Below are positions 47,289 through 63,533 of a stretch of 64,000 nucleotides of DNA, piece by piece; position 1 is the stretch's first letter; each line of letters begins with the position of its first letter. The stretch comes from Ruania halotolerans (GTDB lineage: Bacteria; Actinomycetota; Actinomycetes; Actinomycetales; Beutenbergiaceae), in assembly GCF_021049285.1 (NCBI RefSeq), contig NZ_CP088017.1, positions 3,669,380 to 3,733,379 on the forward strand, read 5' to 3'. The notes beneath the pieces were generated by a model. The model saw only the letters and a program-made list of their open reading frames with translations, was not told where the DNA came from and did no database searches. Position numbers and translations under genes: made by a program.

Positions 47289-47963
47289 TCACGGAGCTTC
47301 GACGGAAGCCTCCCGCCGCGCTTCCCGCAGCCGTCGGCTCGCGCCCTCAAGATGCACCTCGAGTTCTCGCAGAGCGCGCTCTAAGTCACCTGCTCGGACG
47401 TACTCGAGAATCTCCGCATGCGACTCGGCGGACGGATGCAGGTCCACGTCGCGGGCCGTGGTGAGGGTGAGCAAGGTACTAAACGTGGGCTCGTTGTCTC
47501 GCCAGAGGGCGTTCAAACGGCGGTGGCCGGAGAGCTCATAGAACAGCGCGTGGAACTGAAGATCCGCCAGAGCGAAGGTGGCGGCGTCGCTGACATCAGC
47601 CGCAGCACGCATCCGCGCGAGCGGATCCTCAAAGGCCCCCCAGTCCAGGTCGTCCCGGTCGGCGCAGAGCCGGAGCGCGAACGACTCCAACGTCTGCCGC
47701 AACGAGAACATCTCCGCCACATCCTGTTCGGTCAGTCCCACGACGAAGGTGCCGCGCTGCCGGGTTTCGACGAGACCCTCGGCCTCGAGCTTGCGCAAAG
47801 CATCGCGGATCGGCCCCCTGCTCACCCCAAAATCGCGAGAGAGGTCGGCCTCGATCAGGTGAACGCCGCTCACGAGCCGACCATCGACGATCAGCACGCG
47901 CAGTTCACGCGCCACTTGCTCGCCCAAGTTCGTCTGCTTCAGGGGGGTGACGTCGAGTCCCAT
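47289..47963 (-). CDS. FadR-type GntR regulator
   Basis: 224 residues from the ATG at 47963 (GGAGG four bases before). N-terminal winged helix (LRVLIVDGRLVSGVHLIEAD, FGVSRGPIRDALRKLEAEGL) and a C-terminal FCD domain with metal ligands (ADLQFHALFYELSGHRRL, SAESHAEILEYVRAG). It is divergent from a sugar ABC importer and paralogous to the regulator at 54573. Four GTCAAC/GTTGAC sites lie between it and the importer; it probably controls the glycan locus in response to a sugar acid or oligosaccharide. Confidence 0.9.
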   Translation of the reverse strand: MGLDVTPLKQTNLGEQVARELRVLIVDGRLVSGVHLIEADLSRDFGVSRGPIRDALRKLEAEGLVETRQRGTFVVGLTEQDVAEMFSLRQTLESFALRLCADRDDLDWGAFEDPLARMRAAADVSDAATFALADLQFHALFYELSGHRRLNALWRDNEPTFSTLLTLTTARDVDLHPSAESHAEILEYVRAGDLERALRELEVHLEGASRRLREARREASVEAP

Positions 47964-47988
47964 CCGACCTCCATGTCGCCGTGTCATC

Positions 47989-48108
47989 GGTCAACCAAAT
48001 ACCGAGAGCGTACACGCCCCACCGCTTCCCATGCGTCGAAGGTCAGTGCGGTCAACCGTCAACGATCAATGCGCTAACAGTTGACAGACAGCGAATGCTG
48101 CCTAAGAT
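47989..48108 (+). promoter_or_regulatory. Importer promoter with GTCAAC/GTTGAC operator sites
   Basis: Candidate -35 TTGACA (48081-48086) and -10 TAAGAT (48103-48108) with 16-base spacing. GTCAAC occurs at 47990, 48051 and 48058, and its complement GTTGAC at 48080, overlapping the -35. The same hexamers form a palindrome at 57934-57946. They fit binding by the GntR proteins of the locus. Confidence 0.6.
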
Positions 48109-48198
48109 GAGTCCCACCCGGACAACAACCGACGGGCAACAGACAACGGACTACGACGTCCGGCCCGCGCGACCATCAACGATGAGGGAGCAATACAG

Positions 48199-49581
48199 AT
48201 GAGAGCACCGCGAATGCTCACAGCGATCGGGGCGGCGGCGACGCTGGCACTGGTCGCCGGATGCGGGAGCGCCGGTGACGGTCCCGACGACAGCGACGAG
48301 CCGGCCACAGTCGACGGTCCTGTCTCAATCAGCGTGATGGGACTACCCCCCGAGACCAAGCCGGAGGAGCGAGAACAGTTCCAAGCCGACATTGAGGCGT
48401 TCGAAGCCGAGCACCCCGACATCACGATCGAGGCCTCCGACTACGAGTTCTCCACGGACACGTTCTCCGCCCGACTCGCCGGCGGGGACGTCGACACCGT
48501 GCTACGGGTCCCGTTCACCGAGGGCAACGCACTCATTCAGCGCGAGCAGGTGGCCAATATCCAGGCCGAGATCGATGCGCTCGAGCACGGCGGGGACCTG
48601 AACCCGGCCGTGATGGACCTGATGTCGAACGCCGATGGCGACGCGTTCGGTCTCCCGGAACGGGCCTACGCCGTCGGGCTGCTCTACAACCGTGACCTGT
48701 TCGAGCAAGCCGGGCTCGACCCGGACGCGCCGCCGACGACGTGGGACGGGGTGCGTGAGGCAGCCCTGGCCTTGAAGGAGGTTGTCGACGTTCCCTACGC
48801 CGAGCTCACCGTCGACAACCAGGGCGGCTGGCACATCACCATGCTCACCTACTCCTACGGCGGTGTGCTGCAGGAGCAGGAAGGCGAGGAGTACGTGGTC
48901 ACCTTCGACAACCCGGCCACCACCGAGGCGCTGACGATGCTGAACGAGATGCGCTTCGACGACGACGTGATGGGCACCCAGCAGCTGCAGGGGCAGGCCG
49001 ACGTGCTGCGCGATTTCGCCGCCGGTGAGATCGGGATGTGGATCGGCTCACCCGATACATTCAACGGCTACGTGAACAACTTCGATGGCGACCCTGCCAA
49101 CTACGGTGTCGGGGCAATGCCGCAGGCCGGAGGCAACGCCACGCTCAGTGGTGGCTGGATCACCATGGTCTCGGCGACGGCGACCGACGCCGAACGCGCC
49201 GCTGCCGTGACGTGGATGGACTACATGAACCTGCGGCCACGCTACGACGTCGAGGTCGCGGCCGAGCAAGCGCAGGCCGATGCCGAGGCCGGGGTGCCCG
49301 TGGGTGTGCCGGAGGTGCCGCTCTTCGACGAGGAGACCGCCGCCACGGTCAACGAGGCGATCGCGGAGTACGCCACGTTCCCGGAGGGCAATGCCGACGG
49401 CTACGTGGAGGGCAACGCCACGATCGAGTACCGGCCCGAGCCGGCACTCGGCGGGCAGGAGTTGTACGCCGCGCTCGACCCGGTGATGCAGGCCGTGCTC
49501 ACCGAGGAGAACGTCGACATCCAGGCGCAACTCGCCGCTGCCGCCGAGCAGGCGTCCGCGGCCATCCGACGGCTGCAATGA
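48199..49581 (+). CDS. Sugar ABC importer, substrate-binding lipoprotein
   Basis: 460 residues. Lipobox LALVAGCGSAG, then family 1 extracellular binding protein features: PVSISVMGLPPETKPEEREQ, VDTVLRVPFTEGNALIQREQ, AYAVGLLYNRDLFEQAGLDP and a C-terminal helical hinge. It should bind an oligosaccharide outside the membrane. The two permease genes follow with 4-base overlaps. No ATPase is encoded nearby; actinomycetes often use a shared MsiK-type ATPase. Confidence 0.88.
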   Translation: MRAPRMLTAIGAAATLALVAGCGSAGDGPDDSDEPATVDGPVSISVMGLPPETKPEEREQFQADIEAFEAEHPDITIEASDYEFSTDTFSARLAGGDVDTVLRVPFTEGNALIQREQVANIQAEIDALEHGGDLNPAVMDLMSNADGDAFGLPERAYAVGLLYNRDLFEQAGLDPDAPPTTWDGVREAALALKEVVDVPYAELTVDNQGGWHITMLTYSYGGVLQEQEGEEYVVTFDNPATTEALTMLNEMRFDDDVMGTQQLQGQADVLRDFAAGEIGMWIGSPDTFNGYVNNFDGDPANYGVGAMPQAGGNATLSGGWITMVSATATDAERAAAVTWMDYMNLRPRYDVEVAAEQAQADAEAGVPVGVPEVPLFDEETAATVNEAIAEYATFPEGNADGYVEGNATIEYRPEPALGGQELYAALDPVMQAVLTEENVDIQAQLAAAAEQASAAIRRLQ

Positions 49582-50531
49582 CGACCACAACCACGAACCG
49601 GGCCTCGGTCGACGACGGGAGCTCACGCCCCGCCGTCGGCCGGCGGCCCCGCCGCCTGATCCGATCCCCGAAACACTCGCTCCAGACGCTCGCCTTCTTT
49701 GCACCCGGGGTGATCCTGTTCGGCTACTTCGCCTGGTGGCCGATGATCAGCAGCGTCATCCTCAGCATGCAGGAGACCAACCTCGTCGCTGACCCGAGCT
49801 GGGTGGGGCTGGAGAACTACGCGTTCATCTTCACCGACCCGCTGCTGTGGACCGCGGTCCAGAACACGCTGCTGTTCGCCGTGATCTCGATCGTGCTCGG
49901 GTTTCCGCTCCCGCTGTTCCTGGCGACGGTGATGTCGGAGTTCCGCCGTCTGGGCGGGCTGTTCCGGGTGCTGGTCTATCTGCCGGCGGCCGTCCCCCCG
50001 GTGGTGGCGGTACTGCTGTGGAAATGGTTCTACGAACCCACCCCCGACGGCGTCTTCAACACCATCCTCGGCGCGGTCGGCCTCGGCCCGTTCCCGTGGC
50101 TGGAGTCGACCTCGTGGGCGATCCCCTCCTTGGTCCTGGCCGCCACCTGGAGCGCCGCCGGGAATACGGTGCTGATCTACCTGGCGGCACTGACCTCCAT
50201 CCCCACCGAGCTCTATGACGCGGCCGAGGTGGACGGCGCGGGCATCTGGCGCCGGGTCTGGCACATCACCCTGCCGCAGATGCGCGGGGTCATGCTGATC
50301 CTGCTGCTGGTGCAGATCATCGCCACCATGCAGACCTTCATCGAGCCGTTCGTGATGACCGACGGCGGGCCCCAGAACTCGACCGTGACGGTGCTGCTGC
50401 TCATCTACCGCTACGCCTTCAACTACGGCGACTACGGCGGCGCTGCGGCACTGAGCGTGCTGCTGGCGATCGTGCTCGGCGTCATCTCGGCGATCTACCT
50501 GCGCGTGACTCGATCCTGGAGCACCACATGA
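49578..50531 (+). CDS. Sugar ABC importer permease 1 (MalF-like)
   Basis: About 317 residues from the ATG at 49578, which overlaps the binding-protein stop. Six helices and the EAA loop DAAEVDGAGIWRRVWHITLP, the ATPase docking site; ENYAFIFTDPLLWTAVQNTL is a common family segment. It partners permease 2. Confidence 0.9.
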   Translation: MTTTTTNRASVDDGSSRPAVGRRPRRLIRSPKHSLQTLAFFAPGVILFGYFAWWPMISSVILSMQETNLVADPSWVGLENYAFIFTDPLLWTAVQNTLLFAVISIVLGFPLPLFLATVMSEFRRLGGLFRVLVYLPAAVPPVVAVLLWKWFYEPTPDGVFNTILGAVGLGPFPWLESTSWAIPSLVLAATWSAAGNTVLIYLAALTSIPTELYDAAEVDGAGIWRRVWHITLPQMRGVMLILLLVQIIATMQTFIEPFVMTDGGPQNSTVTVLLLIYRYAFNYGDYGGAAALSVLLAIVLGVISAIYLRVTRSWSTT

Positions 50532-51511
50532 CCACCACCTCCGATCGGCCCCAGACCGACGAGCTCGCCGAGCAGGCGGTACCGGCTCCTGATAGAGCAC
50601 CGCGCAGGCGCCCGAGTCGAAGGCGGGATGCGGACCTGCCGGATCGCGGCCTGCTCTCCAGCAGCGACCGCAAGCGACTCTCGGTGCGATGGACCATGAC
50701 CCCGCTGCAGTGGGTGATGTTCGTCGTCGTGACGGCGTTGTCGGTGCTCCCGCTGCTTTGGCTCGCCAAGTCGGCGATCTCACCCACGCAGGAGATCCTG
50801 CGTGAACCGTTCCGGCTGTGGCCGAGCGAGGTGCAGTGGAGCAACTTCAGCGAAGCCTGGACCACGATGAGCGTGGGCCGGTACATGTGGAACACCCTGG
50901 TGCTCACCGGTGGGTCCGTGGTGGTCCAGGTGTTCGTCGCGGCGACCCTGTCGTTCGGTATCGCGGTCCTGCGGCCCGCGTACGGCAAGGTCGTCTACGC
51001 CCTGGTTCTCGCCACGCTGCTGCTACCCCCGACGGTCTCGTTGATCGCGCTGTACCTGACGATCCTGGACCTACCGCTGCTCGGGCTGAACCTGCAGAAC
51101 ACCGTCTGGGCGATCTGGCTACCGGCGGGCGTGCACGGCTTCAGCGTGCTGTTGTGCGTCCGGTTCTTCCAGGGCATCCCGCGCGAGCTGTTCGAGGCCG
51201 CGCAGATCGACGGGGCCGGGCCCTGGACCATCTTCCAGCGGATAGTGCTGCCGATGTCGCGTCCCATCCTTGCCGTGATCTCACTGCTGGCGGTGATGAA
51301 CTCGTGGAAGGACTTCCTCTGGCCACTGATCGCCGTCCCCGACACCGACCGCCGTCCGATCACGGTGGCACTGTCCATCGTGGCGCGCTCGGTGGAGGAG
51401 AACCTCCTCTTCGCGGGTCTACTGATCGCCACGCTGCCGCCCGTGCTGTTGTTCATCATCTTCCAACGCCAGATCGTCCGCGGGGCCGGATTCACCGGTC
51501 TCAAAGGCTGA
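50528..51511 (+). CDS. Sugar ABC importer permease 2 (MalG-like)
   Basis: 327 residues, 4-base overlap with permease 1. A long charged N-terminus (RAPRRRPSRRRD) precedes six helices and the EAA loop EAAQIDGAGPWTIFQRIVLP. MNSWKDFLWPLIAVPDTDRRPI is typical of MalG-type partners. It completes the transmembrane channel. Confidence 0.9.
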   Translation: MTTTSDRPQTDELAEQAVPAPDRAPRRRPSRRRDADLPDRGLLSSSDRKRLSVRWTMTPLQWVMFVVVTALSVLPLLWLAKSAISPTQEILREPFRLWPSEVQWSNFSEAWTTMSVGRYMWNTLVLTGGSVVVQVFVAATLSFGIAVLRPAYGKVVYALVLATLLLPPTVSLIALYLTILDLPLLGLNLQNTVWAIWLPAGVHGFSVLLCVRFFQGIPRELFEAAQIDGAGPWTIFQRIVLPMSRPILAVISLLAVMNSWKDFLWPLIAVPDTDRRPITVALSIVARSVEENLLFAGLLIATLPPVLLFIIFQRQIVRGAGFTGLKG

Positions 51512-51578
51512 TCCGGCACCAGACACCCGGGCTGTGCGCACCGACGCATCCCAACCACACCACCGAAGGAGGAAGCGC

Positions 51579-52508
51579 GTGTCCGCACCGCTGCGCACCG
51601 GGGACGATCTCACCGGCGTCTTCTGCCCCCTGATCACCCCGTTGGACCACGACGGCGCACTGGACCGTCCCGGCTTGGAGCGTCACGTCGACCGGGTGGT
51701 CGCCGCGGGCGACGCGGTCATGGCACTCGGCACCAGCGGGGAGCTGCCGATCCTCCCGGCCGTCGTGGCCGAGGAGGCGCTCGAGGTGATCGCCGCGCAA
51801 CTGGACGGGCGCACCGCCCTGGTGTGCGGCGTCGGGGACGTGGGCACCGAGCGGACGCTGGCGAATGTGCGCCGGGCGAAGGCGGCCGGGGCTGACGTCG
51901 TCGCCGTGACCACGCCGTTCTACTACCCGCTCGGTGAGCCGGAGATGATCGCTCACTACCTCGAGGTGGCCGAGCGCTCTGACCTTCCGGTGGCGATCTA
52001 CAACATCCCAATCAACACCCATCTGCCGGTGACCCGGGCCGTGATGGAGCGGGTGGCTGCTCACCCCAACGTGGTCGCGATCAAGGACTCCGGCGGGGAC
52101 GGCGATTTGATGCGCTGGCTGCTCGAGACTCGCAGCGACACCGGTCTGAAGGTGCTGCAGGGCACTGACGAGGCCCATGCCACCCAGCACTGGCAGGCGG
52201 GTATCGATGGCTACGTCTCAGGTCTGGAAAACCTTGCGCCGGGCACGATGCTGGATCTCGCCGCCGCAGTGCGCTCCGGCGACACAGGTGCGGCCGATCG
52301 TGCCCAGCAGCGCATGGACGCGATCCTCGGCGTGATGGAGCATGGCTTCTGGCTGAGCGTGCTCAAGGAGGGCGCGGCCCTACAAGGGATCGGGTCGGGG
52401 CGGATCAGCCCGCCGTTGCCGGCGTTGAGCCTCACGGCACGCGCCTATCTCGAGGACGCCATCACTGCGCTCGCGGCGAGCGAACCCGTGACGGCGACCC
52501 GCACCTGA
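51579..52508 (+). CDS. DHDPS/NAL-family class I aldolase
   Basis: 309 residues from the GTG at 51579 (GAAGGAGGA before it). The Schiff-base barrel has GVFCPLITPLDHDG, substrate loop ALGTSGELPIL, tyrosine in LPVAIYNIP and the lysine in NVVAIKDSGGDGD. Members cleave or form 2-keto-3-deoxy sugar acids, N-acetylneuraminate or dihydrodipicolinate. Sitting last in the importer operon, it is more likely a catabolic aldolase for a sugar acid released from the imported glycan than lysine-biosynthetic DapA. Confidence 0.85.
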   Translation: MSAPLRTGDDLTGVFCPLITPLDHDGALDRPGLERHVDRVVAAGDAVMALGTSGELPILPAVVAEEALEVIAAQLDGRTALVCGVGDVGTERTLANVRRAKAAGADVVAVTTPFYYPLGEPEMIAHYLEVAERSDLPVAIYNIPINTHLPVTRAVMERVAAHPNVVAIKDSGGDGDLMRWLLETRSDTGLKVLQGTDEAHATQHWQAGIDGYVSGLENLAPGTMLDLAAAVRSGDTGAADRAQQRMDAILGVMEHGFWLSVLKEGAALQGIGSGRISPPLPALSLTARAYLEDAITALAASEPVTATRT

Positions 52509-52689
52509 GTCCGTCGCTCACGGAGCTCTTGAGAAATCGCCCAATGCTCAGTTCCATCCCCCACGGCGAGTCTCTTTCTCTGGCCGGTACCGGCCAGTGC
52601 CGTTGATGGCCACCTGTGGGCGTTGCGCGGGCGTACAGCCGCCTTCTACGGTCGTGAGGTTCGGTCGTCGAGGTGGTGGGGTTGGGTTC

Positions 52690-54564
52690 GTGCGCAGTCG
52701 CGGTGTGGGTGTGGCCGGTGTGCTGGGGTTGGCGTTGCTGGGGGCGGTGGCAACGGCCGGGCCGGCCGTGGCTGCGGTGGATCCGGTCGAGCACACCGTC
52801 GAGGTAACGGACACGGGTCCGGGGTCGTGGCAGGTACCCGAGCTCGCATCCGACGTGCAGGTGACGTTGCGTGGCGCGGCGGGCGACGAGTGCTTCTTCT
52901 GGCCAGGGGGGTCTCCTCAGGGGGGTGCCGGTGGGGTGGTGACGCTGGCCTTGGACGGGGATCTTGCGGGTTCGATGCTGGGGTTCACGGTCGGCGGCAT
53001 AGGTGCGGGTAGTCCGGGCGGCGGTAATGAGGAGCCAGGCGGCGGGGGAACCGCACTCAGCTCCGGTGACGACCTGCTTGCCGTGGTCGGCGGAGGCGGT
53101 GGTGCTGGTCGTGAACACGTCCACATCGACAACGAGCCCAACCACGGGTGCGTCGCTGGCGGTGACGGCGGAGTCGCCACCACACCGGGAGTGGGGCCGG
53201 GGCAGCCGGGAGTACCCAGCGATCTCTTCGACTCCCACGCTCCTGGTGGTGGCGGCACCGAGGTCGGCGGCCGGACGGATCCGGAAGCCGATGGGCACGG
53301 CGACGCTTATTGGGGCGGTCGTCCTGGTCAGGACGGCCCACCCAGCATCGACGGAGGGATCATCACCCTCAGCGCAGGTGGTGCCGGCGGCTGGGCGGGT
53401 GGTGGTGGCGGGTCGGGGTACGCCGGCGGCGCAGGCGGAACGACCGATGTCTGGGACAACTTTGGGGTCGATACCGTAGACGACCGCGGTGGCGGCGGTG
53501 GCGGCTCGGGATTCCTGACTGATGATTCGCGGGTCAGTGCCGTGCCCGGCTCGGCCGGCACCAACGTCGGGGCCGGGTCGATCACGATCACCTACCAGGT
53601 GCCCGGCCCGGCCACCGCGGCCGATACCAACGCCGAGACCGGGTACGGGGACGGGCCCGTGCGGGTGGCCCCGGAGGTGGACGGTGCGACCAGCCTGAGC
53701 GTGGATGAGGAGCCCGAGTTCGGGCAAGCGGACGTGGACGGGATGGAACTGGTCTACACCCCGGAGGCGGACTTCGTGGGCACCGACTCCTTCACCTACA
53801 CCGCCATCGGACCAGGCGGGGACAGCGACCCAGCGACAGTGACCATCATCGTCGCCGCACCCGACCTCGCCATCGGCGATGAATTGCCCGACGGGATCCA
53901 GGGCCACCCCTACGAGCACACCCTCACTGCGACCGGCGGCACCGAACCGTGCGAGTTCACCGCCGAGGACCTGCCCGAGGGAATCACCCTCGAAGACGGC
54001 GTGCTGACCGGCATCCCGCCCACCGCTGGTGAGCACCCGATCACGGTCACGGTCGCTGATTCCAGCCGGCCCGAGGCCGTCACCGTCACCGTCGAGTTGG
54101 TGTTGCACGTGCACTCCAACGAGTTCACCGCCGTGGACTCAGCCGAGGCCGGCACCGACATTGAGATCACCGGCACCGATCTGCCCGACGGGGACTACGA
54201 CATCGTGCTCACCTCCGACCCGCTCACCCTGGGCCAGACCACCATCACCGACGGTGTGCTGGAGGCCGAGGTCACCATCCCAGCCGAAACCAGTGCCGGG
54301 GAGCACACCCTGGAACTGGTCCGCGAGGGCGTGGTCATCGGCTCCCAGCCGCTGGAGGTCACTGCTCCACCGGCCGCCGATCCCACCCCGGAGCCGGAGC
54401 TCACCGACCCGACCCCGGAGCCGGAGCCCACACCAGAGACACAGCCGCAGGACGAACTCCCCGACACCGGCGCCACCTGGACCACCCCCGCCACCCTGGC
54501 ACTACTGCTCGTCACCGGAGGCGCCGGCCTGCTGGCGACCCGCCGAATCCACCCGGCGCGCTGA
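52690..54564 (+). CDS. LPDTG sortase-anchored, glycine-rich surface protein
   Basis: About 624 residues. The start is uncertain: GTG at 52690 gives a good signal peptide (GVAGVLGLALLGAVATAG), but GTG at 52654 or 52597 is possible; none has a strong ribosome site. Then a glycine-rich region of about 220 residues (glycine-rich autotransporter-like, with GGGGGSGYAGGAGG), a cadherin/Ig-like segment with TFTYTA-type pattern, putative Ig domains (TATGGTEPCEFTAEDLPEG) and a Pro/Glu/Thr stalk ending LPDTG, helix, RRIHPAR. It would be wall-linked by sortase. Position within the glycan locus suggests binding of the polysaccharide. Confidence 0.75.
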   Translation: MRSRGVGVAGVLGLALLGAVATAGPAVAAVDPVEHTVEVTDTGPGSWQVPELASDVQVTLRGAAGDECFFWPGGSPQGGAGGVVTLALDGDLAGSMLGFTVGGIGAGSPGGGNEEPGGGGTALSSGDDLLAVVGGGGGAGREHVHIDNEPNHGCVAGGDGGVATTPGVGPGQPGVPSDLFDSHAPGGGGTEVGGRTDPEADGHGDAYWGGRPGQDGPPSIDGGIITLSAGGAGGWAGGGGGSGYAGGAGGTTDVWDNFGVDTVDDRGGGGGGSGFLTDDSRVSAVPGSAGTNVGAGSITITYQVPGPATAADTNAETGYGDGPVRVAPEVDGATSLSVDEEPEFGQADVDGMELVYTPEADFVGTDSFTYTAIGPGGDSDPATVTIIVAAPDLAIGDELPDGIQGHPYEHTLTATGGTEPCEFTAEDLPEGITLEDGVLTGIPPTAGEHPITVTVADSSRPEAVTVTVELVLHVHSNEFTAVDSAEAGTDIEITGTDLPDGDYDIVLTSDPLTLGQTTITDGVLEAEVTIPAETSAGEHTLELVREGVVIGSQPLEVTAPPAADPTPEPELTDPTPEPEPTPETQPQDELPDTGATWTTPATLALLLVTGGAGLLATRRIHPAR

Positions 54565-54572
54565 CCGAGCAG

Positions 54573-55271
54573 TCAGCCACCGGCGCCCTCATGGCGTGCA
54601 GTACGGAACGCCTCAAGACGGGAGCGCGCACCGACGAGGTGCTCGGCGAGTTCTTCGATGGCAGCGTCGACCCGCCCAGTGCGAACGTGGTCCAGGATCT
54701 CCCAGTGCGATTGGGCGGCAGGGTGCAGGTCCCTGTCCTGGGCGGTGGACACCGCCAGCAATGCGGCAAAGGTGGGTCGATACCCCTCCCACACGCGCTG
54801 GAGCCGGCGATGGCCGGCAATCCGGTACAGGCTCGTGTGGAACTCCAGGTCCGCCTCTGCGAATGCCAGCGCGTTGCCGTCATCGGCCGCGCGATCCATC
54901 TCCTTGAGGAGGTCGAGTGCGGGCCGCCAGTCGGCGTCCTCGCGGACAGCGCAGCGCCGGACGGCGAACGTCTCCAGGGTCAGCCGGAGCGAGAAGAGCT
55001 CCAGGAGATCGTCGGCAGAAATCCCCACCACGGCCAGGCCGCGTCCGCGCACCGCCACGAGCCCTTCGGCCTGCAGCGTGCTGAGTGCGTCCCGGATCGG
55101 GCCCCGGCTCACCCCGAAGTCCGTCGACAGGCTTGCCTCCACCAGTCGGTAACCCGCAGGGAGCTCACCAGTGGCGATGAGCCAACGAAGCTTCGCGGCC
55201 ACCTGGTCACCGAGAGCGTTGCGCTGCACCGGTGTGACCGAGAGGCCCTCCACCCGCCCCGGCGTGATCAT
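54573..55271 (-). CDS. FadR-type GntR regulator, paralog of the one at 47289
   Basis: 232 residues; the ATG at 55271 overlaps the previous stop as ATGA. Winged helix (LRWLIATGELPAGYRLVEAS, FGVSRGPIRDALSTLQAEGL) and FCD domain (EADLEFHTSLYRIAGHRRL, AAQSHWEILDHVRTG) closely parallel the first regulator. As the last gene of the sulfatase operon it may provide feedback or sense a later intermediate. Confidence 0.9.
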   Translation of the reverse strand: MITPGRVEGLSVTPVQRNALGDQVAAKLRWLIATGELPAGYRLVEASLSTDFGVSRGPIRDALSTLQAEGLVAVRGRGLAVVGISADDLLELFSLRLTLETFAVRRCAVREDADWRPALDLLKEMDRAADDGNALAFAEADLEFHTSLYRIAGHRRLQRVWEGYRPTFAALLAVSTAQDRDLHPAAQSHWEILDHVRTGRVDAAIEELAEHLVGARSRLEAFRTARHEGAGG

Positions 55272-56377
55272 CGAACGCCCTGTACACCGCTGCGGAAGTC
55301 AGGGAATCGGTGGAAGGTCATGTAGTTGCTGTCGTGGAAGTTCTCCGCGCTGCCCTCGGAATCCTCGTACGCGGTGCGAGAGACGAACAGGATGTCCTCC
55401 CCCTCGACCACCCAGTCCACGTACTGGAAGCCGTGATCGGCGTCGTCCTCGTGCTCGAGCAGCACCTCGCCGACCTGCCAGGTCCGCAGGTCCGGGGAGG
55501 TCGCGTGGCAGAGCACATGCCGGCCGCGCAGTCCCTTTCCGGCACGCTCGGGGTGGGCCACATGGTTGACCAACGCGTGATAGCGCCCGGTCGGCTCGTC
55601 CCAGCGGATCGTGAACTTGGAGATCCCGCCGGGCATCGGGACCACGTCGGCCTCCGGATCGAAGACCATCGGACCGTCCGGCGTCGGCACCCGCAAGAGC
55701 GCACTGTAGACGTGCTCCCCCGTGCCCGGCTCGTCCACCCGCATCACGTTCATCATCTGCCCGTCCGGTCCGACGACGGCGTTGCCCTCCAGCCACGCGT
55801 TCATCGTCCCGCCCAGCCAGCCTGGGTCGACCGCCTCGAACGGCGTGCTCGTCCAGCTCCGCGCGTCGAGCAGATCGGCGCCCACCGGGGCAGAGAGCAT
55901 CCCGGCACGGAAGGACCGCCCCCACCTGCTCGTGTCTGTCACATCCTCGATGGCGCGCCACCAGCGCCCCTCATGCTCGAGGACCGGCGTAGGTGCGGTG
56001 TGGAAGGTCCCGGACCTGATCAGGCCGTTCGCCTCGTCGGTGGGCTCGGTCCAGGTGTGCCCGCCGTCGTCGGAGCGGCGGATCACGACGTTCCCGTACT
56101 GCCGGCTCGCCCCGATCGTCCAGACACTGCCTCCTGCGAGAAACAGCGTGCTCCAGAACTGGCCGGTCAAGGTGGCGCGGTGGGTCCAGGTGGCGCCCTG
56201 GTCGGTGGAGCCGTAGATCATCTGGGTGTCGAAGTTCGTCCCCGGCCCGAACAGGTCATGGCCGGCGAGGTAGTCGCCGTCGGGTAGCACGACGATCGTC
56301 GGTGAGCCGACGTAGGCACGGCTGCTGGCCGGCGAATGGCCGATCACTGTTCCGGGGACGGTGGTGGCGACGGTCAA
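55268..56377 (-). CDS. Cytoplasmic Asp-box (BNR/sialidase-fold) enzyme
   Basis: 369 residues from the TTG at 56377 (AGGAG six bases before). It has no signal peptide. Two Asp-boxes are clear: STDQGATW and SDDGGHTW (SxDxGxxW), with beta-propeller blades (YVGSPTIVVLPDGDYLAGH, WLGGTMNAWLEGNAVVG). The fold is that of exo-sialidases and some polysaccharide lyases; a catalytic arginine triad cannot be confirmed by eye. Placed between sulfatase and regulator, it likely trims an imported oligosaccharide. Sialidase activity is uncertain. Confidence 0.7.
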   Translation of the reverse strand: MTVATTVPGTVIGHSPASSRAYVGSPTIVVLPDGDYLAGHDLFGPGTNFDTQMIYGSTDQGATWTHRATLTGQFWSTLFLAGGSVWTIGASRQYGNVVIRRSDDGGHTWTEPTDEANGLIRSGTFHTAPTPVLEHEGRWWRAIEDVTDTSRWGRSFRAGMLSAPVGADLLDARSWTSTPFEAVDPGWLGGTMNAWLEGNAVVGPDGQMMNVMRVDEPGTGEHVYSALLRVPTPDGPMVFDPEADVVPMPGGISKFTIRWDEPTGRYHALVNHVAHPERAGKGLRGRHVLCHATSPDLRTWQVGEVLLEHEDDADHGFQYVDWVVEGEDILFVSRTAYEDSEGSAENFHDSNYMTFHRFPDFRSGVQGVR

Positions 56378-56432
56378 CGGATGCTCCTGTGGGTTGCGGG
56401 TGTGATGGATAGGCGTGTCGTGGCGGGGCTTG

Positions 56433-57872
56433 TCACGCCATCGTGTGCTGCGGGAGCCGCTCGCCGCCGCGCGGTCCGGCGCACCAGTGCTGGCGGACCT
56501 GCCAGTCGAGCAAGACGGCCATGAGGTCGGCTCGGATGTGGGCGAGGCTCGGGTCCTCCCATCGGTCATGCTTCTCCTCGGGATCGGCCTCGAGGTCGAA
56601 GAGCTGGCCGTCGGGTGCCACCGGGTCGTGATACCGCACCAGCTTGTACCGCCCTGCGCGGATCATCGTGGCGAGCAGGGGCGGGTCGAAGTAGGTAGTC
56701 GGCTGCCCGACGGCGACCCCACCGTTGCGGTAGGAGGAGGTCACGAACGCATGGGGTGCGGTCTCGCCCGTGGCGAGGAGCCGGAGGTCGAGCACGTCCT
56801 CGAGGTAACCGGTGTCCAGGCCGGCCGCACGGAGCACGGTCGCGGCAACGTCAGTGAGCGCGACAGGGTCAGCCACCCGGACGCCGTCGGGAACCACACC
56901 GGGCTGGCGCAGGAGCAACGGGACCCGTACGCACGGCTCGTAGAAGAACGCTCCCTTGGTCATCAGGCCGCGGTCGCCGAGCATCTCACCGTGATCGCTG
57001 GTGACAATCACCAGGGTGTCTTCCGCGAGGCCCAGCTCATCCAGCCGGTCCAGCACCTGGCCGATCTCCGCATCGAGAAGAGCGATAGAGGCGTGGTACC
57101 CCACCCGGGCCGCGTCCAGGTCACCGCCGGCCACGTGTGCCGCCACGGTCTTGGACTCCATCTCCCGCCGCAGGCCGTCGGGGACCCGGTCGGGCACGGG
57201 GCGTACCGGCGGCAACTCGCCCACCTGCTCGGCGAACTCCTCCGGGTAATCATCGAACGGGTTGTGCGGGTCAAAGAATCCCAGGTAAGCGAAGAACGGC
57301 TGCCGGCCCGCGGTCTCGTCGATGAAGGCAAGAGCGCGATCGGCGATCCAGTGGCTCATGTGCACGCTGCGTGGATGGTGCAGCACACCACGACCTTCGC
57401 CGCGCAACCGCTCCCGGAACTCAGGATCCTTCTCGGCGAGCCACGCGTCATAGGCATGCAGCGGGGACTGCATGTCCAGGCTGGCCTCGTTGCACCATTC
57501 GTACACGTCAAAACCATCCCGCGGATGGCGGCGGGTGGCTTCGTCGGCGCGGCCACTCACATGCAACTTGCCGAACAGCCCAGTGCGATATCCGGCGTCG
57601 CGCAGGCGCTCGGTAAACAGGGCCTCGGACTCGGGCAACGTGTCGTAGAGCTTCTCCACTCCGTGTTCGGCCACCTGCTTGCCGGTGAACATGCTGGCCC
57701 GGCTCGGTGTGCACAGCGGTGAGGTGCAGTACGCGGCATCGAACACCGCCCCCTGCCCGGCGAGGTGATCCAGATTCGGTGTGTGACCGCCGTCAAAGCC
57801 GTAACAGGCCAGCGAGTCGTAGCGCTGCTGGTCGGTCACCACGAGCACGACATTCGGGCAGTCGGATCCCAC
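56433..57872 (-). CDS. Type I (formylglycine) sulfatase
   Basis: 479 residues, no signal peptide. N-terminal metal ligands in VVLVVTDQQRYDSLACYG, the formylglycine motif C54-T-P-S-R in SPLCTPSRASMFTGK, and the second metal site VIVTSDHGEMLGDRGLMTKG. The cysteine needs conversion to formylglycine by a maturase not encoded here. Being cytoplasmic, it would desulfate imported oligosaccharides. First gene of a minus-strand operon with the Asp-box enzyme and GntR paralog. Confidence 0.9.
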   Translation of the reverse strand: MGSDCPNVVLVVTDQQRYDSLACYGFDGGHTPNLDHLAGQGAVFDAAYCTSPLCTPSRASMFTGKQVAEHGVEKLYDTLPESEALFTERLRDAGYRTGLFGKLHVSGRADEATRRHPRDGFDVYEWCNEASLDMQSPLHAYDAWLAEKDPEFRERLRGEGRGVLHHPRSVHMSHWIADRALAFIDETAGRQPFFAYLGFFDPHNPFDDYPEEFAEQVGELPPVRPVPDRVPDGLRREMESKTVAAHVAGGDLDAARVGYHASIALLDAEIGQVLDRLDELGLAEDTLVIVTSDHGEMLGDRGLMTKGAFFYEPCVRVPLLLRQPGVVPDGVRVADPVALTDVAATVLRAAGLDTGYLEDVLDLRLLATGETAPHAFVTSSYRNGGVAVGQPTTYFDPPLLATMIRAGRYKLVRYHDPVAPDGQLFDLEADPEEKHDRWEDPSLAHIRADLMAVLLDWQVRQHWCAGPRGGERLPQHTMA

Positions 57873-57933
57873 GACGCTCCTTCACGGTCGACGGTTAACC
57901 ACCACCCTATCGGCCCAAGTGAACGAACGCAAC

Positions 57934-57962
57934 GTTGACAGTCAACCGTTACCGGTTATCGT
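57934..57962. promoter_or_regulatory. GTTGAC palindrome and promoter between divergent glycan genes
   Basis: GTTGACAGTCAAC (57934-57946) is a perfect 13-base palindrome; its TTGACA can serve as -35 with TATCGT at 57957-57962 as -10 (16 bases apart) for the beta-helix gene. A second palindrome, GGTTAACC, lies at 57893-57900. The hexamers match those before the importer genes. Confidence 0.6.
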
Positions 57963-57999
57963 TGGCCTCGTCCTACTTCAACGATGAGGAGCAAATCCG

Positions 58000-59898
58000 A
58001 TGGACGACCACACGTCTCGGCGCAACATCCTGGGAGCGGGCCTCGCCGGCCTCGCCGCGAGCACCGCCGCCGTCACCTTGGGGGCGCTTCCTGCGTCTGC
58101 CAGCCCTGGGAATGGGAACGGCAATGGGAACGGTCAGGGCAACGGGAACGGCAATGGCAACGGGGGGAACCCTCACAACAACGACGCCACGGCGTCATCT
58201 GTGCTCAGCTGGGTCAGCATCCATGAATACAAGGATCAGGTCACCAACCAGTCGGACCCTGAGGAGGACTGGGACTGGACGGCTGCAATCCAATCGGCGA
58301 TCGACGAGAATGCCGGCCGCGTCATCTACTTCCCGAACACCTCACCGCGCTATCTGGTGAGCGACTACATCGCCATGCGCTCGAATACGAGCCTGATCGG
58401 CGATGGCGATTCCCTGATTTACTTCACCATCCCGATCGAGGACACCGACGACATCCTCGTTCGAGGCGGCTTCTTCCGACTGCGCGAGCAAGCCGTGATG
58501 GACGATCCGACCGGCACCTTTTCCTACGACATCACCGTCCGCGCGCTGAGCTTCGAGTCCCTCGAGCAACAGCGCAACGGTGTGTTCAAGCTGGTCAACG
58601 CCCGCCGCGTGACTATCGCCGACTGCAGGTTCGTTAACTGCGGGGCCGCGTTCGTCTGCCACGAGCTCGAGATGAACAATTCCTACGTCCGGGCCAATGC
58701 AGGTGAGAGCGGCGACCCCGCAGTGGAAGCCGGCTTCTCCCCCGACTCCACCGACGACCTCAACGAGGACATCGTCTTCGTGAACAACTACATCGACGGC
58801 GTCGAGTACTTCGTGATGGCGCTACGCCTGAACTTCGTCAAGCGGGCCGTCATCACCGGGAACATCTGCCGGTTCGGGCAGATCTCCTGGTGGGGTGGCG
58901 GTGCCCGCAAGGGCGAGGGTGGCGAGAAGCATTTCCTGCGTCGCTGCCTGCAGTTCACCATCGCGAACAACTATCTGCACCAGAACAACGGCGCGATCTA
59001 CGGCAACAACGGCTCCGAGATCACCGTCACGGGCAATGTGTGCGAATACTCCATTGACACAGCGATCGACATGGAGGGATGCCAGAACTTCACCGTCGAC
59101 GGCAATACCGTGAAGTACGCCGGCAATTTCTGCTACAGCGTATTCTACGGCTGCCGCAACGGGGTGTTCAGCAACAACGTCGCCATCCAGGGCCCGGCCG
59201 CGGCCGATATGGGGCCGGTCGGGCAGCAGAGGGGTCTGGAGGTCTTCCGTCAGATCGCCAGCTTCGACGACGCCACCCCCGAGCAATACGCCATCCGGGG
59301 CAACACCTTCCGCTGGGACGGGGACACCGGATTCGGTGTGGTCCGCCTGGATAACTACGGCGATGTGACGATCTCGGACAACTACTTCGAGAACGTGATC
59401 ATCGACGGAGTGGTCGGCCATTCCAAAGCGAACCAGTCACTCATCAACAACGAGTTCCGCTTCACCAATGCCAGTGCAGCCAACGACGTCTACATCGCGC
59501 TCGGTCGGCAGTCCGTGGGCGGGCGGAGTTGCCTGGTCCGGGACAACCGCATTCAAATCGAGAACGCCGACGCGGGCGCGATCCCGATCGTGGTGGTGCA
59601 ACACCGCTCCGACTCCGCGGCGATGAGTCTGATCGACCGGAACGTCATCGATGCTCAGACCGACATCGCCATCGCCTACGGTGACCTGCGCACAGGCACA
59701 CGCAACGATGGTCAGACGTTCACGTTCCGGGAGAACGTGCTCGCCTCGGGCAGCATCGCCAACCTCAGCCGAGGCGGGAAGACCGAGGTGCTCGTCGAGA
59801 GCAACCGCGACTGGGACCTCGCCGAGGCCACCTGGACCGAGGAACCAGACACTGACCGGTACCCCACCCTCAAGACCGGCCTGTCCGTCATGGACTGA
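58000..59898 (+). CDS. Tat-secreted parallel beta-helix protein, probable polysaccharide lyase/hydrolase
   Basis: 632 residues; GAGGAG precedes the ATG. The N-terminus HTSRRNILGAGLAGLAAS is a twin-arginine signal, so it is exported folded. A Gly/Asn repeat linker follows, then about 25 beta-helix coils rich in Asn turns (NNYIDGVEYFVMALRLNF, ITVTGNVCEYSIDTAIDMEG, VFSNNVAIQGP). The fold fits pectate-lyase-like enzymes (GH28, PL6 and others). It is the only clearly secreted enzyme of the locus and thus the best candidate for first attack on the polymer. Specificity unknown. Confidence 0.78.
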   Translation: MDDHTSRRNILGAGLAGLAASTAAVTLGALPASASPGNGNGNGNGQGNGNGNGNGGNPHNNDATASSVLSWVSIHEYKDQVTNQSDPEEDWDWTAAIQSAIDENAGRVIYFPNTSPRYLVSDYIAMRSNTSLIGDGDSLIYFTIPIEDTDDILVRGGFFRLREQAVMDDPTGTFSYDITVRALSFESLEQQRNGVFKLVNARRVTIADCRFVNCGAAFVCHELEMNNSYVRANAGESGDPAVEAGFSPDSTDDLNEDIVFVNNYIDGVEYFVMALRLNFVKRAVITGNICRFGQISWWGGGARKGEGGEKHFLRRCLQFTIANNYLHQNNGAIYGNNGSEITVTGNVCEYSIDTAIDMEGCQNFTVDGNTVKYAGNFCYSVFYGCRNGVFSNNVAIQGPAAADMGPVGQQRGLEVFRQIASFDDATPEQYAIRGNTFRWDGDTGFGVVRLDNYGDVTISDNYFENVIIDGVVGHSKANQSLINNEFRFTNASAANDVYIALGRQSVGGRSCLVRDNRIQIENADAGAIPIVVVQHRSDSAAMSLIDRNVIDAQTDIAIAYGDLRTGTRNDGQTFTFRENVLASGSIANLSRGGKTEVLVESNRDWDLAEATWTEEPDTDRYPTLKTGLSVMD

Positions 59899-59963
59899 GT
59901 CGACGAACAGTCGGGCGGGGCGCGGCTGTCGCCGCCCCCGCCTGGCCTTCTGGAGAAGAGCGT

Positions 59964-61268
59964 ATGCCCCGCCCCCACATTGTCTACCTGCACTCTCACG
60001 ACACCGGCCGGTACGTGAGCCCGTACGGCTACGGCGAACCGACCCCGCACCTACGGCGCCTGGCCGAGGACGGCGTGGTGTTCCGGCAGGCTTACTCCGC
60101 CGCTCCCACCTGCTCACCCTCACGAGCTGCGCTCGCCACCGGGATGTATCCGCACGAGGTCGGCATGCTCGGGCTGGCCAACCGCGGCTTCGCGATGGAC
60201 CAGCGCCTGCACCTCGTCCACACCTTGCACGAGGCCGGCTACACCAGCGCGCTGGCAGGTGTGCAGCACGTGAGCACCGAATGGTCACAGATCGGCTACA
60301 CCGACGTGCTGCCGATCGCCTCCCGTGATGCCCCGGACGTGAGTGCCGCAGCAGTGGAGTTCCTCGCCGGACATGCCGACGACGAAACGCCGTTCTTCCT
60401 CGACGTGGGCTTCCGCGAGACGCATCGGGCCTTCGACGACCCTGGCGACCAGGACGACGCGCGCTATCTGCTGCCCCCGGGGCCCCTGCCCGACATCCCC
60501 GAAGTGCGCGAGGAGATGGCGCAGTACCGTGCCAGCGTGCGCCGCCTCGATGACGGCATCGGTGCCGTGCTGGACGCGCTGGACCGCTACGGGCTCGCCG
60601 AGAACACTCTCGTGGTGTGCACCACCGACCACGGCTTGCCGTTCCCGGGGATGAAGGGCCAGCTCACCACGCACGGAGTCGGCGTGATGCTGCTGGCGCG
60701 CGGGCCCGGGTTCGCCGGCGGGCAGGTACTGGACGGGCTCGTCTCCCAGGTGGACCTGTTCCCCACGTTCTGCCGCGCCGCCGGGATCGAGCCGCCCACC
60801 CGAGTGCGCGGTACGGCCCTACAGCCCCTTGCCGACGGCACCGCCACGACCGTGCACGAGGAGATCTTCACCGAGACCACCTTCCATGTGGCCTACACCC
60901 CGATGAGATCGGTCCGGACCCAGCACTGGGCCTACATCCGGAGGTTCGACGACGGCGGGAGCCGGGCTGAGCTCAACGAGGCCGACTCCCCCACACTCAC
61001 CGCGCTGACCGAGCACGGCTGGGTCGATCGCCCGCGCCCCGCCGAAGAGCTCTACGACTGTCTGCTCGATCCGCAGGAGCGCGCCAACCTCGCCGAGTCG
61101 CCCGACCTCCAGCCGGTGCTGACCGACCTGCGCGAGCGGCTCACGACCTGGATGCAGGAGACCTCCGATCCATTGCTGGCCGGCCCGGTGGCGCCACCGC
61201 CGGGTGCTCGCGTCGACGATCCGGCACCCAACCCCGTCGGACAGCAGGCACGCGTGCTCGAGATCTGA
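59964..61268 (+). CDS. Type I sulfatase resembling heparan N-sulfatase
   Basis: 434 residues, no signal peptide. HIVYLHSHDTGRYVSPYG, formylglycine motif C50-S-P-S-R in AAPTCSPSRAALATG, then MYPHEVGMLGLANRGF and VVCTTDHGLPFPGMKG. The segment SxxSCSPSRASLLTGxPxHQNGMYGL of human sulfamidase aligns well by eye, so N- or O-sulfate on glucosamine is a possible target. Cytoplasmic; 65 bases downstream of the beta-helix gene and likely in its operon. Confidence 0.85.
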   Translation: MPRPHIVYLHSHDTGRYVSPYGYGEPTPHLRRLAEDGVVFRQAYSAAPTCSPSRAALATGMYPHEVGMLGLANRGFAMDQRLHLVHTLHEAGYTSALAGVQHVSTEWSQIGYTDVLPIASRDAPDVSAAAVEFLAGHADDETPFFLDVGFRETHRAFDDPGDQDDARYLLPPGPLPDIPEVREEMAQYRASVRRLDDGIGAVLDALDRYGLAENTLVVCTTDHGLPFPGMKGQLTTHGVGVMLLARGPGFAGGQVLDGLVSQVDLFPTFCRAAGIEPPTRVRGTALQPLADGTATTVHEEIFTETTFHVAYTPMRSVRTQHWAYIRRFDDGGSRAELNEADSPTLTALTEHGWVDRPRPAEELYDCLLDPQERANLAESPDLQPVLTDLRERLTTWMQETSDPLLAGPVAPPPGARVDDPAPNPVGQQARVLEI

Positions 61269-62261: not shown

Positions 62262-63533
62262 TCAGGCGCCGAGCAACGCCAACGGGACCACGGCGATTCC
62301 GTCCGATCGGCGATAGGCACGCGGGCCGGTCGTGAGCACCACCAGATCTACGACATCGTCACCGAGCCGATCACGCAGCCACAGCAGGTGCCGGACATCG
62401 TCATCTCGCACCGCTGCAGCGAGCTTCACCTCGATCCCGAGCACCTGCCCTTCGGGCCCCTCGACGACGAGATCGACCTCATGGTCACCATTGCGGGTGC
62501 GCAGGTGGCCCACCCGAGCTTCGGCGGCTTGTGCAGCGACGCGGACGGTGAGCGTCGCGAGCGACTCCAGCAGTGGCCCGGCCATCGGCGCTCCGGTAGG
62601 CAACCCGAGTGCGCGGGCTGACAAGTTGAGCAGCCGGGCGGCAAGCGCCGGATCTGCGAGCTGGTGCTTCGGCGCCTGCTGCAACCGCGAGATCGGGTTG
62701 CGCGCGGGGCTCCATCCGGGCACCGGATCGAGGAGCCAGAGCTGAGTCAGGTGGTCGCGGTAGGCAATAGTGGTCGTCTTCGCCGGGTGCACACCATCAC
62801 CAGTCGTGGTGGCGTCCAGCAGGCGTGCGTAGGACGTCGAGGTGGACGAGACGGCGGCGTACGCTGCCAACCATCGGCGCAGCGTCTCCGGACGGCGCAC
62901 CGATACTCCGTGCTCCGGTAGGTCCCGGTGGATCACCTGCTGCAGGTAGGCATCGAGAAGTCGGCGTCGATACGCGGGAGCATGCCGGTATACGCCCGGG
63001 AATCCGCTCGCTTCGACGGCTTCGAGGTACTTGTCGGCCTGCCACGTGGTCTGTCCGGTGATGGGATCGGCCCTCCCGTCGAGCAACGCGGCCAGGCTGA
63101 CGGTCGACCGCTCGAAGCCACGCTCATAGAGGGCCAGCGGCCGCATCCGCAGCGACAGGATCCGCCCCGCACCCGAATGCGTGTCCACCCCGGCTGCCGG
63201 TGTCGCGCTGCCGGTCAGGAGAAACCTATCGGCCGGGGAACCCGCGTCGACGCTGCGCCGCACGGAGTCCCACACGGCTGGATACCGCTGCCACTCGTCG
63301 ATCAGCACAGTGCCCTCGGACATCCGGAAACGGGGATCCGCGGCGACGCCGGCGACGTGGTCGTCGTTGTCCAAGAACCACGCGGTCCTCGCTCGTCGGG
63401 CAGCGGTCTCCGTCTTCCCGACGCCCTTCACTCCCTCGATTGCGATGGCAGGCGCGACGGCGAGCAGTTCGTCGAGTTCGACGTCCACGGTGCGCGGGAG
63501 ATACCCGTGCGCAATCCCATTTTCACTGGTCAC
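62262..63533 (-). CDS. AAA ATPase with DUF4143 (archaeal-type ATPase fused to nuclease-like domain)
   Basis: 423 residues, GTG start. P-loop AIEGVKGVGKTETAARRA near residue 35, Walker B GTVLIDEWQRYPAVWD, sensor LLTGSATP, and the DUF4143 C-terminal domain with HEVDLVVEGPEGQVLGIEVKLA (restriction-endonuclease-like D-ExK pattern). Such proteins are often linked to mobile or defence functions but none is proven. Two direct repeats in the upstream gap may be control sites. Confidence 0.82.
   Translation of the reverse strand: MTSENGIAHGYLPRTVDVELDELLAVAPAIAIEGVKGVGKTETAARRARTAWFLDNDDHVAGVAADPRFRMSEGTVLIDEWQRYPAVWDSVRRSVDAGSPADRFLLTGSATPAAGVDTHSGAGRILSLRMRPLALYERGFERSTVSLAALLDGRADPITGQTTWQADKYLEAVEASGFPGVYRHAPAYRRRLLDAYLQQVIHRDLPEHGVSVRRPETLRRWLAAYAAVSSTSTSYARLLDATTTGDGVHPAKTTTIAYRDHLTQLWLLDPVPGWSPARNPISRLQQAPKHQLADPALAARLLNLSARALGLPTGAPMAGPLLESLATLTVRVAAQAAEARVGHLRTRNGDHEVDLVVEGPEGQVLGIEVKLAAAVRDDDVRHLLWLRDRLGDDVVDLVVLTTGPRAYRRSDGIAVVPLALLGA

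Follow-up and report, generated by a model that had tools for sequence, protein, structure and literature searches.

A probable locus for sulfated-carbohydrate catabolism with predicted cytosolic desulfation in Ruania halotolerans

Where in the cell, and on what, do sulfatases without signal peptides act when their genes lie among those of an importer and of carbohydrate enzymes? The question is raised by a locus of the actinobacterium Ruania halotolerans at positions 47289-61268 of a 64,000-nucleotide stretch (contig NZ_CP088017.1, 3,669,380 to 3,733,379; hereafter the window). It encodes two sulfatases, a sialidase-fold Asp-box (BNR) protein, an enzyme of the DHDPS/N-acetylneuraminate lyase (NAL) superfamily, an exported beta-helix protein, an ATP-binding cassette (ABC) importer and two GntR regulators. 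We consider it probable that the locus serves the regulated catabolism of a sulfated carbohydrate and that desulfation takes place inside the cell. Read from sequence, the features that point this way are the gene content, the missing export signals, a formylglycine-generating enzyme (FGE) and OB_MalK proteins encoded elsewhere in the genome, conservation of the genes as a unit, and, in the BNR protein, polar residues that are invariant on what is predicted to be a sialidase fold.

Sulfatases and their maturation

Sulfatase 1 (56433-57872, minus strand; Pfam Sulfatase 3.6e-49) has the motif CTPSR, and its PF00884 domain (168.1 bits) begins at residue 6 of 479. Sulfatase 2 (59964-61268, plus strand; 3.1e-35) has the motif CSPSR, and its domain (122.4 bits) begins at residue 4 of 434. 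Export signals were judged by hydropathy, as the best 12-residue value upstream of the domain, and no hydrophobic segment was found in frame upstream of either sulfatase. The BNR protein (55268-56377, minus strand) probably starts at TTG 56377, behind AGGAG. Its longer ORF reaches 56569, and no hydrophobic segment was found from either start. By sequence, both sulfatases and the BNR protein are predicted to be cytosolic. An earlier sequence-only reading of the locus, which had named two CxPSR sulfatases without signal peptides and a cytoplasmic Asp-box enzyme, is borne out on both.

The same pattern is seen across the R. halotolerans genome (G000). It has 18 sulfatase matches, of which 16 are full-length once the partial L020 and L021 are dropped. 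Fifteen of these have upstream hydropathy values of 1.22 or less, that is, no visible export signal; two of them, L005 and L010, have fewer than 12 residues between the domain and the preceding stop. The remaining sulfatase, L014, is undecided at 1.84. Seven proteins expected to have signals served as controls; six had values of 1.76 to 2.78, and the seventh, whose start is doubtful, had 0.98. With no export signal seen by this measure in 15 of its 16 full-length sulfatases, the organism looks to be a habitual user of cytosolic desulfation. The sequence-only reading had also proposed a search for an FGE gene elsewhere in the genome, and a full FGE was found at G000:C1:3074817-3075644 (260.1 bits against a curated cut-off of 23.3). 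Its motif is GGSFLCHDSYCNRYR, the two cysteines of which we take to be catalytic. Two partial FGE matches are present besides.

The nearest solved relatives of sulfatase 2 are a chain named S1_8A sulfatase (1.7e-32) and human SGSH (1.9e-32). The two match equally, and the assignment of sulfatase 2 as specifically a heparan N-sulfatase was dropped; the resemblance that the sequence-only reading had offered as a hint to the substrate is not specific. SGSH acts at the C2 substituent. The hint is weakened because the authors of S1_8A interpret their enzyme as a galactose-2-O-sulfatase, likewise acting at C2 (PMC12549532; the chain is tied to this paper by the name S1_8A only). Sulfatase 2 differs from the S1_8 sulfatases and SGSH in having no signal peptide.

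Five stretches around sulfatase genes of this genome (L119, L120, L121, L122 and L123) were inspected by eye. Each has binding-protein-like or permease-like ORFs, and they also hold some large glycosidase-looking ORFs.

Beta-helix protein

The beta-helix protein (58000-59898, plus strand; Beta_helix 1.8e-9) has the twin-arginine (Tat) signal SRRNIL, in agreement with the sequence-only reading, and the signal is present in all four aligned copies. Its match to Pect-lyase_RHGA_epim (4.1e-7) scores 30.5 bits, above the cut-off of 27, and it is described as a right-handed beta-helix protein and possible polysaccharide depolymerase. Read from sequence, then, the beta-helix protein is exported and the sulfatases stay inside the cell. 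The structure model, built from a four-row alignment, has a pLDDT of 57, for which reason the naming of an activity from Foldseek matches (RbmB lyase, PfbA, GH110, PL6 and tailspikes) was dropped. Orthologs are 94% identical in G105, and 78% and 59% identical in G074, where the two genes form a tandem pair (L124:1819-5767).

Conservation of the locus

The distribution of the genes was determined in an order-level sample of 248 genomes and a phylum sample of 396. In the former, the BNR protein has matches at E up to 0.001 in 12 genomes, strong (E <1e-100) in G000, G105, G074 and G212 and short and weak in the other eight. The beta-helix protein has matches in nine, strong in G000, G105 and G074 and weak in six. 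Sulfatase 1 has matches at E up to 1e-80 in eight, three at 100, 84 (G105) and 61% (G074) identity and five at 39-41%. Sulfatase 1 at 60% identity or more and the strong beta-helix matches occur in the same three of the 248 genomes, all of which are also BNR-strong. The locus is carried by two of the seven genomes of the genus listed there. Profile searches of the phylum sample with the BNR and beta-helix families gave strong matches in R. halotolerans alone, with weak BNR-like matches in five other genomes (E 5e-8 to 5e-6), and added no further members to the families.

G105, from the same genus, retains the genes for GntR1, the solute-binding protein, two permeases, the DHDPS-family enzyme, GntR2, the BNR protein, sulfatase 1 and the beta-helix protein, in that order. 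G074, from another family, retains the BNR, DHDPS, GntR, sulfatase 1, solute-binding protein and both permease genes, with two beta-helix copies and, directly after them, a 69% identical sulfatase 2 homolog. It has in addition a second set of binding-protein and permease genes and an AXE1-type esterase gene. G212 has a reduced version consisting of GntR, permease, BNR and DHDPS genes. The recurrence of the same neighbours in other genomes supports the view that the locus genes form a unit that is rarely found elsewhere, and the co-occurrence of homologs on which the sequence-only reading depended is seen in G105 and G074 and, reduced, in G212.

Sialidase-fold protein

The BNR protein is probably a glycoside hydrolase. 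Its AlphaFold model (pLDDT 94) matches GH93 and GH33 enzymes along its length in Foldseek and VIA comparisons. GH93 enzymes, which include exo-arabinanases, are the best Foldseek hits (5.9e-12) at an identity of 11-14%. A PDB search with the single sequence found no match, and the family profile matched GH33 sialidases mainly via the Asp boxes.

Forty-seven members of the family, from seven phyla, were aligned. Eleven residues are invariant in all of them: E142, E195, N197, R211, D258, R284, S292, Y317, R332, H346 and N349. The spacing of E195, R211, R284 and Y317 resembles, in sequence and not by coordinates, that of the Glu-Arg-Arg-Tyr of Salmonella sialidase. The column of the RIP arginine is occupied by Gly in 44 members and Tyr in 3, the equivalence of the column resting on a weak profile alignment. 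The predicted propeller fold is shared with GH33 sialidases, but their full arginine triad is not seen, its first arginine being replaced at this column. Taken together, the invariant polar residues and the RIP column favour a catalytic protein and speak against one of the standard sialidase type. No catalytic Asp was identified in the family. Maximum-likelihood analysis places the four proteins from actinobacteria in one group (96/90), beside 35 others.

DHDPS-family enzyme

The ORF of the DHDPS/NAL-superfamily enzyme, an aldolase, lyase or dehydratase (51579-52508, plus strand), opens at 51534, but the ribosome site is better at GTG 51579, and the G105 ortholog begins there. The presence of such an enzyme, noted in the sequence-only reading, is confirmed by Pfam (DHDPS 9.9e-46; PF00701, 156.2 bits). 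Its AIKDS aligns with TKDS and IKEA of solved members, and the lysine is presumably the Schiff-base lysine. The scores against curated models are all below cut-off: 104.6 of 281 and 91.1 of 382 bits for NAL, 127.6 of 206.15 for dapA, and, at about the level of NAL, 97.1 for KDG aldolase and 100.9 for 5-dehydro-4-deoxyglucarate dehydratase. G074, which carries the whole core, has no NanE above cut-off (21.7 of 27 bits). In G212, the gene near NanE, along with binding-protein and permease genes, is a different DHDPS-family gene lying apart from the BNR-DHDPS pair, and it scores no better as NAL (88.1 of 281 bits). These three observations weaken an assignment of the window enzyme as NAL.

Importer and regulators

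The importer consists of a lipoprotein solute-binding protein (48199-49581; SBP_bac_1 1.5e-30; lipobox-like LVAGC), permease 1 (49578-50531) and permease 2 (50528-51511; BPD_transp_1 1.1e-12), all on the plus strand. Permease 1, which was not among the ten locus proteins of the Pfam scan, has a 96% identical ortholog in G105 and local similarity to permease 2, the G105 ortholog of which is 92% identical. None of the locus proteins was recognised as an ABC ATPase. Elsewhere in the genome two proteins match OB_MalK, the domain by which they were judged, and would allow the importer to share an ATPase. Two ATPase-like ORFs, at 62262-63533 and at L120:17487-18713, have an AAA/DUF4143-type look and were named by eye.

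Two regulators of the GntR family with FCD domains are encoded on the minus strand, GntR1 at 47289-47987 (Pfam GntR 4.9e-15, FCD 1.6e-20) and GntR2 at 54573-55271 (Pfam GntR and FCD). They are 54% identical, and the two paralogs and the importer genes without an ATPase are as the sequence-only reading had them. The best-matching homologs of GntR1 are 81, 71 and 56% identical in the G105, G074 and G212 stretches, respectively. GntR2 has a 72% homolog in the G105 stretch and no counterpart of its own in those of G074 (L038) or G212 (L039). The ORFs of all the named genes in 47289-61268 have coding-type codon bias.

BNR relatives in other phyla

Outside the actinobacteria, 55 BNR loci were compared, with neighbours called by tblastn and the near-duplicates L042 and L053 included. 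Forty of the BNR homologs were examined for export, and 31 have a hydrophobic segment no more than 45 residues upstream. The other nine comprise four with long N-terminal extensions (L041, L066, L072 and L084), one with a segment further upstream (L052), and L058, L074, L076 and L077, in which hydropathy revealed no hydrophobic segment. Judged by these sequences, the family appears to be mostly secreted outside the actinobacteria.

DHDPS genes are present in 7 of the 55 loci; when the window protein is the sole query, the count is 5 of 55. Sixteen of the genomes, in which 97 Mb contain 75 matches, give an expectation of 0.66 genes (Poisson 6e-6 for 7 and 6e-4 for 5; the background was counted by Pfam and the loci by tblastn). 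DHDPS genes near BNR genes are therefore found more often than expected in other phyla. The proteins are 24-33% identical to that of the window, and orthology is not established. The L086 and L088 BNR proteins are distant members of the family (26-29% identical to the window protein).

Both L079 and L084 have BNR, FG-GAP, sodium:solute symporter (SSS) and DHDPS genes, and L079 also has a sulfatase gene. The recurrence of these four genes is seen at L079:9929-17225, L084:10001-15760 and L080:1727-11082, in Bacteroidota, Planctomycetota and Verrucomicrobiota. L079, L080, L084 and L086, whose groups include these phyla, resemble the Ruania locus in having a member of the BNR family (distant in L086) near a DHDPS-family gene, but have a sodium:solute symporter nearby in place of its ABC importer. 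In 7 of the 55 loci, the neighbours of the BNR gene include one for a DUF3748 protein.

One sulfatase-BNR fusion, an ORF of 840 amino acids, was found at L041:8567-11089 in a metagenome-assembled genome labelled Akkermansia muciniphila; it was read by tblastn. Two further sulfatase genes precede it, and all three products have hydrophobic N-termini.

Proposed pathway and alternative readings

We infer the activities, the order of the steps and the substrate of the pathway as follows. The Tat-exported beta-helix protein would cut the polymer outside the cell, and the lipoprotein binding protein and two permeases, driven by an ATPase encoded elsewhere, would bring in the sulfated pieces. Once in the cytosol, the pieces would be desulfated by the two sulfatases, which the chromosomal FGE would mature, and the BNR protein may then hydrolyse the exposed residue. 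The DHDPS/NAL-family enzyme would split or dehydrate the released acidic sugar, perhaps to pyruvate and an aldehyde, and the FCD-GntR proteins would sense an intermediate.

The acidic sugar might be sialic acid, with the BNR protein an intracellular sialidase, the DHDPS-family enzyme an N-acetylneuraminate lyase and the sulfatases stripping sulfated sialoglycans. We regard this as unlikely in view of the Gly or Tyr at the RIP-arginine column, the low scores on both NAL models, the lack of a NanE above cut-off in G074, and the association of NanE in G212 with another DHDPS-family gene. A uronic acid is a possibility that we entertain tentatively. Here the beta-helix protein would be a lyase or hydrolase of a sulfated uronan, and the BNR protein, as a member of the GH93/GH33 superfamily, an exo-acting uronidase or furanosidase. 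The DHDPS-family enzyme would take part in uronate breakdown as an aldolase or dehydratase of 2-keto-3-deoxy acids. Two conserved arginines of the BNR family would suit a carboxylate, GH93 enzymes lead its Foldseek hits by E-value, the beta-helix protein exceeds the Pect-lyase_RHGA_epim cut-off, and KDG aldolase and 5-dehydro-4-deoxyglucarate dehydratase score about as well as NAL. Against this, no uronate isomerase, uronate dehydrogenase, KDG kinase or GH88/GH105 domain was found in the ten scanned locus proteins, and the model of the beta-helix protein is of low confidence. The sulfatases might instead scavenge sulfur from small esters such as choline sulfate or aryl sulfates, their neighbours serving an unrelated sugar. 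The best structure match of sulfatase 1 is indeed a chain named choline-sulfatase, and it scores 201.9 bits as an arylsulfatase and 189 as a choline-sulfatase, but the curated cut-offs are far higher (481 and 433.45). The same 3 of 248 genomes conserve it together with the genes for the BNR protein, the beta-helix protein and transport. This, and the sulfatase-BNR fusion in another phylum, also speak against a scavenging role, which we judge quite unlikely.

Several observations weigh against a locus for cytosolic desulfation of a sulfated carbohydrate. Export signals were judged by hydropathy and not by a trained predictor, and an FGE-family match is present in 11 of 12 related genomes and is not specific to carriers of the locus. 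No recognisable characterised glycan-cutting enzyme is encoded: the BNR protein scores 26.1 bits on Pfam BNR_2, under the cut-off of 31.4, and the beta-helix protein, with its low-confidence model, could bind instead of cut. Sulfatase 2 was not found in 19.9 kb of G105, its genome as a whole not having been searched, and neither a sulfatase nor a beta-helix protein was found within the 19.9 kb of G212, so that desulfation is not tied everywhere to the BNR-DHDPS core. In other phyla, just 10 of the 55 BNR loci have sulfatase genes, and even these may mean nothing in sulfatase-rich groups. The excess of DHDPS genes there is affected by a background of 16 genomes picked for long contigs, by four of the five DHDPS queries having been taken from the loci, and by the near-duplicate loci.

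A broader proposal, which we consider doubtful, is that the BNR proteins are an uncharacterised glycoside hydrolase family by which an acidic sugar of the 2-keto-3-deoxy (ulosonic) type is released from sulfated glycan, and that the linked DHDPS/NAL enzyme cleaves this sugar to pyruvate. The pathway would be cytosolic in these actinobacteria and mostly outside the cytosol in Planctomycetota, Verrucomicrobiota and Bacteroidota.

Comparison with known systems

The import of sulfated oligosaccharides and their desulfation in the cytosol, as put forward in the sequence-only reading, is supported in part, in that the genes form a unit and the sulfatases are cytosolic by sequence. It is not new in kind. 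ABC import of sulfated disaccharides and a predicted cytoplasmic sulfatase have already been proposed for Streptobacillus moniliformis (PMC5430744). Its glycosaminoglycan cluster, Smon0120-0128, resembles the Ruania locus in having an ABC binding protein, permeases and a predicted cytoplasmic sulfatase that acts on the imported pieces. It also encodes lyases of families PL8 and PL12 and, from GH88, an unsaturated disaccharide hydrolase (PMC5430744). The Ruania locus instead has the Tat beta-helix protein, the sialidase-fold BNR protein and the DHDPS-family enzyme; no named lyase family or GH88 domain was found in its ten scanned proteins, apart from the lyase-like Pect-lyase_RHGA_epim match. 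The differences from S. moniliformis are this set of enzymes and an actinobacterial host of whose 16 full-length sulfatases 15 have no export signal that is visible. No description of the gene combination was found in the literature searched.

The locus provides a testable, self-contained model for the possible use of sulfated glycans, without sulfatase export, by an actinobacterium that has 16 full-length sulfatase genes. It also points to a conserved family of predicted sialidase fold with members in seven phyla, and the searches made revealed no activity for it.

Candidate operators and an additional ORF

Clusters of operator-like sites resembling GACnGTYRACnGTC lie in two intergenic regions. 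Four imperfect sites, with two mismatches each, are in the gap between the GntR1 and binding-protein genes (48047-48144), and four with one or two mismatches are in the divergent sulfatase 1/beta-helix promoter (57883-57950). The latter promoter has an exact site in G105, and imperfect palindromes near GACnGTTAACnGTC are common to the locus promoters of the window, G105 and G074. The motif was partly derived from the promoters in which the sites were then counted. With a 13-base motif and one mismatch, the window has 16 sites against 6 +/- 3 expected (1 of 100 shuffles as high, some palindromes being counted on both strands); with a 14-base motif and two mismatches it has 22 against 16.8 (10 of 100 shuffles), which is not significant. 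Counts in the related stretches were 2 against 0.45 for L037 (17 of 200 shuffles), 1 against 0.57 for L039 with one mismatch (89 of 200) and 8 against 7.2 for L038 (87 of 200). In G212, an exact site precedes the likely GntR start codon (ATG 14922 of L039) by 25 bases, with 0.02 such sites expected in 19.9 kb. The motif is not established by the counts alone; its support comes from position and from the exact G212 site, which is more independent. It is plausible from these sequences that the palindromes are a putative operator of the GntR proteins.

A glycine-rich ORF for a surface-type protein with a Big_9 domain, ending in LPDTG and a hydrophobic segment, lies inside the interval at 52597-54564 and was missing from the list of genes in the sequence-only reading. 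Searched by tblastn, the stretches of G105, G074 and G212 gave no match to it, and it is treated as a passenger in the locus. In G105 its place is occupied by a Fic-domain protein.

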